Shown: in pieces, positions 39,027-42,007 of the stretch
How positions within the stretch are numbered: position 1 is the stretch's first letter
Layout of the letters: the number at the start of each line of letters is the position of its first letter
Assembly (NCBI GenBank): GCA_947492475.1
Contig: CANLNM010000002.1
Coordinates: 372,001 to 436,000, forward strand
Direction: 5' to 3'
Length of the DNA: 64,000 bases
From: an uncultured Paracoccaceae bacterium
GTDB taxonomy: Bacteria; Pseudomonadota; Alphaproteobacteria; Rhodobacterales; Rhodobacteraceae
Program-made: the position numbers and the translations under genes
The notes under the pieces: model-generated
Seen by the model: only the letters and a program-made list of their open reading frames with translations
What the model was told of the DNA's origin: nothing
Database searches by the model: none

Positions 39027-40181
39027 ATGTGGCGACACATTGCCAGCAACGCGATGACGTTGTTCATCGTGGTGCTGTTTCTGGCTGCCGGTTTGGTGGT
39101 CTGGGGCACGCGGGAATATGCGGCCCAAGGGCCGTTGGACACTGCGATCTGTTTGCGCGTTGAATCCGGCAGCAATATGCGCCGGGTCAGCGAAAACCTA
39201 GCGGATGAAGGCGCGATCAATTCTGCGGCGATGTTCCGGATCGGGGCAGATTATTCCGAAAAATCCAGCCAGTTGAAAGCGGGGGCCTATTTGGTGCCTG
39301 CAGGCGCGTCGATGGAATCCATCGTGGATATCGTCACACGCGGCGGTCAAAGCACCTGTGGCACAGAAATTGTGCATCGCATCGGGGTGACCCGCAGCGA
39401 AATCCAAGTGCGCGAACTGGACCCCGCCAGCAACCGGTTTGTCGAAGTGGCGGCGTTTAATCCAGCCGAAGAAGACGCGCCCGAGGTGTACACCGAATTG
39501 CGGGCTTCGTCGGATACCCGGTATCGCGTGGCCGTGGCCGAAGGCGTGACCAGCTGGCAAATCGTCCAGGGGCTGAACGGGATTGATGGGCTGGATGACC
39601 CGGTGGATGTGATCCCCGGCGAAGGCACATTGGCGCCGGACAGCTATGAATTCACCCCCGGAACCGACGTGGAAACCATTCTGGCGGCGATGACGGCCTC
39701 TCAGGCGCAGCGTCTGGCCGATGCATGGGCCGCACGCGCCGATGGGTTGCCCTATGCCAACCCAGAAGAGGCGCTGATCATGGCCTCCATCGTGGAAAAA
39801 GAAACCGGTTTGGCCGAAGAGCGCCGCCAAGTGGCCAGCGTTTTTGTCAATCGGATGAACCGCGGAATGCGTCTGCAAACGGATCCCACGGTGATCTATG
39901 GCATCACAAATGGCGAAGGCATTCTGGGCCGTGGATTGCGTCAAAGCGAGCTGCGCCGGGAAACGCCGTTTAACACTTATGTGATTGACGGATTGCCACC
40001 AACCCCGATTGCCAATCCCGGTTTTGCCGCGATGGAAGCTGCGTTAAACCCTGATACTACTGAATATATTTTCTTTGTGGCAGATGGGACAGGTGGCCAT
40101 GCATTTGCGACAAATCTGGACGATCACAATTCAAATGTCGCCAAGTGGCGCGAAATCGAAGCGCAGCGCGCGAACCAGTAA
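39027..40181 (+). CDS. mltG: Endolytic murein transglycosylase MltG
   Basis: The 384-residue inner-membrane enzyme cleaves nascent glycan strands. One N-terminal transmembrane helix (about 10-28), a LysM-like region (VAEGVTSWQIVQGL near residue 170), and the YceG domain with the catalytic glutamate in IMASIVEKETGL and the motifs VFVNRM, TDPTVIYG, FNTYVIDGLPPTPI and FVADGTGGHAFAT are seen. The start codon follows the fabF stop directly, so the two are probably coupled. The GTA promoter lies 59 bp downstream. Confidence 0.95.
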   Translation: MWRHIASNAMTLFIVVLFLAAGLVVWGTREYAAQGPLDTAICLRVESGSNMRRVSENLADEGAINSAAMFRIGADYSEKSSQLKAGAYLVPAGASMESIVDIVTRGGQSTCGTEIVHRIGVTRSEIQVRELDPASNRFVEVAAFNPAEEDAPEVYTELRASSDTRYRVAVAEGVTSWQIVQGLNGIDGLDDPVDVIPGEGTLAPDSYEFTPGTDVETILAAMTASQAQRLADAWAARADGLPYANPEEALIMASIVEKETGLAEERRQVASVFVNRMNRGMRLQTDPTVIYGITNGEGILGRGLRQSELRRETPFNTYVIDGLPPTPIANPGFAAMEAALNPDTTEYIFFVADGTGGHAFATNLDDHNSNVAKWREIEAQRANQ

Positions 40182-40239
40182 CGTACTGTAAACGTTCACA
40201 TAAACGCCCCGAACGTTGCGTAGGGTGTTGCGCTAAATC

Positions 40240-40268
40240 TTGACTTATTGCGTTTTTACACGTATAGG
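40240..40268 (+). promoter_or_regulatory. Strong sigma70-like promoter of the GTA cluster
   Basis: TTGACT (40240-40245), 17-bp spacer, TATAGG (40263-40268): near consensus for both boxes and spacing. The start of transcription would be near 40274. Upstream, the word AACGTT occurs twice (40191-40196 and 40213-40218). Confidence 0.65.
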
Positions 40269-40293
40269 TTGTGACATGCTGGAAGACATGGGC

Positions 40294-40329
40294 AAGCGGC
40301 CCCGGAGCAATCCGGTGGCCGCTTTTTCT
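40294..40329 (+). terminator. Intrinsic terminator in the leader of the GTA cluster
   Basis: AAGCGGCC-CCGG (40294-40305), loop AGCAAT, CCGG-T-GGCCGCTT (40312-40324): a 12-bp stem with one bulged T, followed directly by TTTCT, giving a five-T run at 40323-40327. It lies between the promoter and g1, about 20 bases into the transcript. Confidence 0.75.
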
Positions 40330-40374
40330 ATGGCTCTCATCCTGTGGCGGACAATCAATACAGGCAAACCAAGC

Positions 40375-40695
40375 ATGAACGACACCAACAGAGTGGTCCT
40401 CGCGCAAGTCACTGATCTGCGTGAGGAGATTTCGGAAAGCCTAATCCTGCTGAGCAGCGTTCGACGAACGTTGCTTGACCTGCTGACCCGTGTTTCTGAA
40501 GGGGAGGCCGACGCATTGAAAGGTCTTTCCAAGAAACACAGTGAGCTGGAAAGCGCGGTGAAAGCCGCCAAAGACACGGAAAGGCGATTCAATGAGTGGG
40601 AATGCAAGTTCAACGGTAAGGCACGTGAGGGAGAGATCGACTTTGACGCGATCAGAGAGGATATCGGGCGCCGCATTGCTCGCCTCATTGACTGA
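40375..40695 (+). CDS. GTA g1, terminase small-subunit-like protein
   Basis: The 106-residue protein beginning MNDTNRVVLAQVTDL has a long central coiled-coil (about 10-80) and an acidic/basic C-terminus ending RRIARLID. Position directly before the large terminase and length agree with RcGTA g1 (TerS), which in GTAs has lost sequence-specific DNA recognition. The frame is open upstream to 40240 and contains an ATG at 40276 only two bases after the predicted transcription start, so a leaderless longer form through the terminator cannot be excluded. The terminase reading frame overlaps its 3' end. Confidence 0.8.
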   Translation: MNDTNRVVLAQVTDLREEISESLILLSSVRRTLLDLLTRVSEGEADALKGLSKKHSELESAVKAAKDTERRFNEWECKFNGKAREGEIDFDAIREDIGRRIARLID

Positions 40696-42007
40696 GGCGG
40701 ACAGAACGCGATTCCTGAATGGACTAGGGGAGGCAGAGCTGCGTGCTCTGCCTTTCTTGTTTGAGTTTTGGGCGATGGAACATCAGATGCCGCCCGAAGG
40801 CGACTGGCGGTCTTGGGTGATATTGGGTGGACGGGGGGCGGGGAAAACCCGCGCTGGGTCTGAATGGGTACGATCCATGGTCGAAGGTGCGCGCCCCGAA
40901 GACAAAGGGCGCGCATCCCGTGTGGCGCTGGTGGGTGAAACCATCGATCAGGCCCGCGAAGTGATGGTGTTTGGCGAAAGCGGTATTCTGGCTTGTTCGC
41001 CCCCCGATCGCCGTCCGCAATGGATTGCCGGGCGCAAAATGCTGGTTTGGCCCAATGGGGCCACGGCTCAGATTTTTTCGGCCTTTGACCCTGAGAGCCT
41101 GCGCGGTCCGCAATTTGATGCGGCTTGGGTGGATGAGCTGGCCAAGTGGAAAGATGCCCAAGGCACGTGGGATATGTTGCAATTTGGGTTGCGGTTGGGC
41201 GAGGCACCGCGGGTTTGCGTGACCACAACGCCGCGCAATCGCAAGGTTTTGACGGATTTGTTGGACCGCGACAGCACCGTGATGACCCATGCGCCCACAG
41301 AGGCAAACCGTGCCAATCTGGCGGCGTCGTTCCTAGAAGAGGTGCGTCTTCGCTATGCGGGGACGCGATTGGGGCGGCAAGAATTGGATGGCGTGTTGTT
41401 GGCCGACGAAGAAGGCGCGCTGTGGTCGCGGGCCAATCTGGAAACCAATCGGTGCAAGGATATGCCGGATCTGGATCGCATTGTCGTGGCGGTGGATCCG
41501 CCGGTCACAGGCAAAGTGGGATCGGATGAATGCGGGATCATTGTTGCAGGTGTGACGATGCAGGGCGCGCCGCAGGATTGGCGGGCCTATGTGTTAGAGG
41601 ATGCAACCGTGTCTGCATCATCGCCCAGTGAATGGGCGCAGGCTGCGGTGGATGCATTTCATCACTGGCAGGCCGACCGTCTGGTGGCAGAGGTCAACCA
41701 AGGCGGCGATCTGGTCGAAACGGTGATCCGTCAGATCGAACCGGGCGTGGCCTATAAGGCCGTGCGCGCCAGTCGCGGCAAAGTCGTGCGGGCAGAACCC
41801 GTGGCGGCCTTATATGAGCAAGGCAAGGTCCATCATGTGGGGATGTTTGACGCCCTAGAAGACCAAATGTGTCAGATGACCAACAAAGGATTTGCCGGAT
41901 CCAAATCGCCCGACCGCGTGGATGCGCTGGTTTGGGCGCTGACCGACCTGTTGGTGGACGCTCAGCGCGCCCAACACCGCCCCCGGATGCGTGTTCTGGG
42001 CCAATAG
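40592..42007 (+). CDS. GTA g2, terminase large subunit
   Basis: The product of up to 471 residues is the DNA-packaging motor. The ATPase half has Walker A GGRGAGKT near residue 78 and a Walker B-like AAWVDELAKW; the nuclease half has VVAVDPPVTG, LVAEVNQGGD and SPDRVDALVWAL carrying the metal-binding acidic residues. The N-terminus is uncertain: ATG 40592 would overlap g1 by 104 bp, and several GTG/TTG codons between 40625 and 40690 could serve. The conserved block starts at about ALLASLTEADR (residue 28). Confidence 0.95.
   Translation: MSGNASSTVRHVRERSTLTRSERISGAALLASLTEADRTRFLNGLGEAELRALPFLFEFWAMEHQMPPEGDWRSWVILGGRGAGKTRAGSEWVRSMVEGARPEDKGRASRVALVGETIDQAREVMVFGESGILACSPPDRRPQWIAGRKMLVWPNGATAQIFSAFDPESLRGPQFDAAWVDELAKWKDAQGTWDMLQFGLRLGEAPRVCVTTTPRNRKVLTDLLDRDSTVMTHAPTEANRANLAASFLEEVRLRYAGTRLGRQELDGVLLADEEGALWSRANLETNRCKDMPDLDRIVVAVDPPVTGKVGSDECGIIVAGVTMQGAPQDWRAYVLEDATVSASSPSEWAQAAVDAFHHWQADRLVAEVNQGGDLVETVIRQIEPGVAYKAVRASRGKVVRAEPVAALYEQGKVHHVGMFDALEDQMCQMTNKGFAGSKSPDRVDALVWALTDLLVDAQRAQHRPRMRVLGQ

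Follow-up and report, generated by a model that had tools for sequence, protein, structure and literature searches.

Genes and promoter at the head of the GTA cluster

The window, that is, the whole 64,000-nucleotide stretch of DNA that was analysed, contains the head of an RcGTA-type cluster, and the genes and leader elements described here for it lie on its forward strand. We identified g1 (40375..40695) as a small terminase gene of 106 aa by its length and position, which are those of R. capsulatus g1 (324 nt; PMC6854486). The g1 frame is open back to 40240, and the true start is most likely the ATG at 40375. The end of g1 overlaps g2 (40592..42007), the large terminase gene (terL), which has Terminase_6N and Terminase_6C domains and whose true start is probably at about codon 14. 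After g2 follow portal, prohead protease, capsid, DUF2460 and GTA_TIM genes, the content by which the cluster is assigned to the RcGTA type. Among phages, we found no relative of the window's terL above 60% identity. The upstream neighbour of the cluster is mltG (YceG family; PF02618, 3.8e-78; 39027..40181). At the start of terL, a perfect hairpin (GGCAGAGC/GCTCTGCC; 40725-40759) is followed by T-rich DNA; with matches in 59 of 200 relatives, a frequency close to the coding background, it shows no clear conservation and was rejected as a second terminator.

The GTA operon promoter (40240..40268) reads TTGACT-N17-TATAGG, with the −35 at 40240-40245 and the −10 at 40263-40268, and is by direct reading of the sequence near consensus for the sigma-70 type. 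The predicted transcription start at about 40275 gives a leader of 100 nt up to the g1 ATG. With a weight matrix built from 141 relatives, from which the window species was left out, 40240 scores highest of all sites on either strand of the 64 kb (9.1 bits, against 4.3 for the runner-up), and with the hexamers alone it scores 17.9 (next, 10.9). A simple rule-based scan lists neither this promoter nor the leader hairpin described below, the likely reason being that it requires a −10 ending in T and seems not to allow a bulge. For R. capsulatus, PMC6363796 describes a 50-bp probe with the −10 and an RNA-seq-supported start, 76-125 nt upstream of g1; the place of the window's promoter and start relative to g1 matches the −10 and start given there.

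An initially transcribed element, GCT[AG]GAAG (40278..40285), was recognised by its conservation in 37 divergent leaders, in which GCT and the G at position 5 never vary. It is also visible in many leaders that have no terminator. Lying just after the start, it is a candidate for a promoter-proximal pause element like those of Q-type loci, but its −10-like form TAGAAG occurs in part of the relatives only. The earlier note on this DNA had proposed that an in-frame ATG close to the start could couple leader translation to read-through. The ATG at 40276 is indeed in frame with g1 in the window, but it is present in only about half of the relatives (71 of about 131 have ATG, 37 have AAG, 9 ACG and 4 AGG), and the frame stays open through the leader in 26 of 74, so that there is no conserved upstream reading frame. 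Nor is there a ribosome-binding site upstream of this ATG in the RNA. We therefore rejected attenuation by a leader peptide as extremely improbable.

Structure and conservation of the leader

The leader contains a predicted intrinsic terminator (40294..40327), formed by the hairpin AAGCGGCC-CCGGA-GCAA-TCCGG-(T)-GGCCGCTT (40294-40324) and a U-tract encoded by five T (40323-40327), at which a terminated RNA would be about 50 nt long. The hairpin has 13 GC-rich base pairs (8 + 5, with one bulged T) and begins 25 nt after the −10; the arrangement reported in the earlier note, a promoter followed by a GC-rich stem 25 bases on, a T-run and then g1, is thus confirmed in the sequence. The segment 40276-40328 folds at −27.6 kcal/mol, compared to −17.2 ± 3.0 in shuffled sequences, none of which was as good (0/200), and the terminator scores 66.3 bits in a covariance model (E = 2.3e-13; folding energy −24.8 kcal/mol). 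Two further structures were found by folding. An outer helix (40287..40332), in which CAUGGG (40287-40292) pairs with UCUAUG (40327-40332), encloses the U-tract and can thus form in read-through RNA only. A second hairpin, CCUGUG/UACAGG (40341..40364), carries the probable Shine-Dalgarno AGG in its 3' arm and a CGGA that is conserved in the loop, and possibly serves translational control of g1. In an arm-permutation test, its own arms scored 11.69 and the permuted arms 10.46 ± 0.32 (maximum of 500, 11.38).

For comparison across the family, we collected loci anchored on terL from 80 named genome contigs and one genome per genus, which yielded 200 distinct upstream regions. By the weight matrix, 143 of the 200 upstream regions of RcGTA-type terL genes carry the same promoter. 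A terminator-like hairpin is present in 141 of these 143 promoter-anchored loci, compared to 121 of 600 shuffled regions and 101 of 399 coding windows, and in 136 of the 141 the 3' end of the hairpin lies 38-70 nt downstream of the −10 (mean 54.4, sd 3.5). A chance hairpin is ruled out by these controls together with the covariation described below.

For the covariation test, the 37 divergent leaders were aligned with MAFFT without use of structure, and the alignment was scored against the fold of the window. Double changes were found in 14 of 17 base pairs. Of all cells, 83.0% are paired vs. 71.6% in shuffles, and 75 have double changes vs. 27.6 ± 4.9, and none of 500 shuffles reached any of the five covariation measures. 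When the partner was slid by 1-3 columns, pairing fell from 83% to 39-57%. The outer helix covaries as well, its own arms scoring 10.85 and permuted arms 9.43 ± 0.23 (maximum 10.09). Compensatory changes in a conserved stem across Rhodobacterales GTA clusters, which the earlier note had named as support for control, were thus strongly borne out. Among non-Watson-Crick pairs in the same alignment, G-U is far more frequent than A-C both in the outer helix (43 vs. 11) and in the inner helices (45 vs. 4), which indicates that selection acts on the RNA of the operon strand. A DNA palindrome acting as a protein site is accordingly disfavoured, because a double-stranded DNA site would give no excess of G-U over A-C.

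The covariance model finds one copy of the element in the genome (next match, E = 0.24). Across the order, 59 of 101 genomes have it, as do 136 of 198 GTA loci. In one genus it is present in 14 of 16 genomes, and compensatory pairs (GAA/TTC vs. GAC/GTC) can be seen there in the outer helix. Judged from these comparisons, the predicted leader terminator is conserved, with matching mutations, across most of the bacterial family. Some clades lack it or have an eroded form; a notable case is the Yoonia/Loktanella-like genomes in which the promoter spacer is 18 bp (terminator in 0/13). The Yoonia/Loktanella-like loci L031, L033, L034, L036, L042, L046 and L047 combine this spacer with the absence of a leader terminator, in some cases with a hairpin directly before the −35; their promoters represent another layout of the same operon.

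Neighbouring genes and other roles of the leader

Upstream of the cluster, mltG is found in most loci, and in the window locus (L001) it is oriented toward the cluster, and no terminator was found in the interval up to the GTA promoter. The leader terminator might therefore mainly stop mltG transcripts from entering the GTA cluster, with the GTA promoter merely preceding it and enough RNA leaking through, and some clusters without a leader terminator do have a hairpin directly before the promoter (e.g., L032 and L174). However, the terminator is present in 37 of the 59 loci without mltG directly upstream. Among these are L004 and L019, in which the upstream genes (PLP-dependent decarboxylase and DegT-family aminotransferase) point away from the cluster; in Paracoccus loci, which have trpF upstream, the terminator is kept with the promoter. 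Moreover, the distance from the −10 to the hairpin is fixed, whereas the distance from the mltG stop codon to the −35 varies from 20 to >1000 nt, and 27 loci have terminator-like sites on both sides of the promoter. Because its spacing is fixed to the −10 and it is kept with other or divergent neighbours, the terminator is tied to the promoter and not to mltG, and we consider it unlikely that insulation from mltG is its main role.

The long hairpin could alternatively protect or tune the 5' end of the GTA mRNA, the U-tract being incidental. The covariation of the outer helix beyond the U-tract and the covering of the Shine-Dalgarno region by the second hairpin are compatible with such a role, which both structures could play in read-through RNA only. 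A stability hairpin needs no U-tract, however, and TTT at this position is invariant in the 37 divergent leaders; as an only role, stability or translation would also leave a strong leader terminator that costs expression. This explanation, too, we regard as unlikely. A promoter followed by a terminator would also be expected to produce a small RNA, about 50 nt long, that could act in trans. For such an RNA, the conservation of the outer helix past the terminator would make no sense, no loop shows obvious sequence conservation for target pairing, and the leader has no Rfam match at curated scores, either to a small RNA or to a riboswitch or other described RNA family. We thus assign this possibility a very low probability.

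A possible transcription gate and the regulator GafA

GTA production kills the producing cell, and the GTA genes are on in few cells. The genome contains one homologue of gafA (DUF6456, 8.5e-63), located at L213:814-1944 (G000:C1 near 80038), which encodes a protein of 376 aa with an N-terminal HTH (weak match) and a C-terminal DUF6456, an architecture like that of R. capsulatus GafA. The sequence TTAAA-N6-GTAAC, about 90 nt upstream of this gene, is similar to the reported CtrA site of R. capsulatus gafA. We found gafA in each of the 36 genomes examined, whether or not they have a leader terminator; DUF6456 scores are lower in the terminator-less genomes, a difference that is confounded by kinship. 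Since some GTA clusters without a leader terminator keep gafA, the terminator is not universally needed.

The reading that we favour, with fair confidence, is that the leader acts as a gate on transcription, of the same kind as those of lambda Q, AlpA and GafZ, and is passed by a GafA-modified polymerase. Under this model, RNA polymerase would start at about 40275, meet the intrinsic terminator about 50 nt further on and mostly stop, so that a short RNA would be made but little GTA mRNA. GafA, when present, would load at the promoter and modify the polymerase, which would then pass the leader terminator and transcribe the cluster. The gate would also block read-through from mltG and so help to keep the lethal operon off in most cells. 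The short RNA that the earlier note considered as the other outcome would be made if the promoter is active in the absence of GafA. The hairpin is preceded by only about 25 nt, too short a stretch to accommodate an aptamer, a leader peptide or a usefully sized alternative RNA antiterminator, which makes a protein acting on the polymerase likely. Expression of the GTA genes thus probably requires a dedicated protein that enables RNA polymerase to override a stop signal.

In the lambda pR'-tR'-Q system, a promoter is followed by a short terminated leader RNA, with structural genes downstream and a dedicated antiterminator. The layout here is alike, and differs in the protein family and in the shorter leader; as in systems of the Q, AlpA and GafZ type, an intrinsic terminator lies between the promoter and the first gene and the genome encodes an antiterminator homologue. 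The alpBCDE operon of P. aeruginosa is likewise lethal and on in a subset of cells, and has the site of its antiterminator, AlpA, between −35 and −10 and an intrinsic terminator before the first ORF (PMC7969949). AlpA is not homologous to GafA or GafZ as far as published, and the terminator described here differs from that of alpBCDE in its family-wide conservation and in the extended helix, which covaries.

A further close comparison is Caulobacter crescentus, which has an RcGTA-type cluster and a homologous regulator (PMC11150451). There, GafZ, which is homologous to the C-terminal part of GafA, binds between −35 and −10, travels with the polymerase, NusA, NusG and NusE, and allows terGTA and E. 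coli rrnB T1 to be passed (PMC11150451). The GafZ element between −35 and −10 has a candidate counterpart in most relatives of the window locus, and both systems have a terminator early in the operon that is bypassed by the polymerase, or here would be. Whereas Caulobacter has separate GafY and GafZ proteins, GafA is one protein, homologous to both and their fused counterpart. An antitermination mechanism would fit the known behaviour of GafZ, and Tran and Le (2024) suggested that R. capsulatus GafA may antiterminate (PMC11150451). At the R. capsulatus RcGTA promoter, which belongs to the same operon with the same regulator and a matching distance of promoter and start from g1, the GafA C-domain binds a fragment with the −35, −10 and start (PMC9638019); the accessible parts of PMC6363796 and PMC9638019 do not contain the word 'terminator' and describe no leader terminator.

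Several observations, the gafA-bearing clusters without a leader terminator among them, count against the gate. So far, R. capsulatus GafA has been described as an activator contacting omega (PMC6363796, PMC9638019). The mapped terminator of Caulobacter, terGTA, stands after the first gene and consists of three 150-bp repeats (PMC11150451), whereas here the 5' leader contains a single intrinsic terminator, some 50 nt after the start; GC-rich 150-bp direct repeats of the terGTA type were not found in the window. Finally, the promoter spacer of the window (40246..40262; TATTGCGTTTTTACACG) does not contain the motif conserved among relatives. In most relatives, the spacer has a conserved CGnACGgtC (columns of up to 1.9 bits in the matrix), a candidate site for the GafA C-domain that resembles the GafZ and AlpA elements in position; it is not recognisable in the window species, which appears to have lost it. 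The terminator is present in 114 of 115 loci with the conserved spacer element vs. 27 of 45 without it, a link that is not significant in a tree-based test with 5 usable independent pairs (p = 0.5), in which the state of the terminator changes at least 7 times.

A search of open-licence full texts turned up no account of a terminator in the leader of Rhodobacteraceae GTA clusters, although older subscription papers may differ. A family-wide terminator directly behind the promoter provides a concrete cis target for the idea that GafA antiterminates. If the gate exists, GafA would be a second, non-homologous type of antiterminator, in addition to Q and AlpA, to control a lethal operon of phage origin. 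It is also conceivable, but rather unlikely, that the outer helix and second hairpin, or GCTRGAAG, form a put/nut-like RNA site recognised by GafA-bound polymerase, in which case a domesticated phage would keep an RNA-guided processivity switch on the host chromosome, family-wide.

Upstream of the promoter, the k-mer GTGTTGCGC is enriched, by a count that ignores kinship. Words similar to GGTGTTGCGC (40224-40239 in the window) recur upstream of the −35 and are a possible site of the GafA N-terminal domain; GTGTTGC occurs in 36 of 143 loci, and in Paracoccus such words often lie at about −70.
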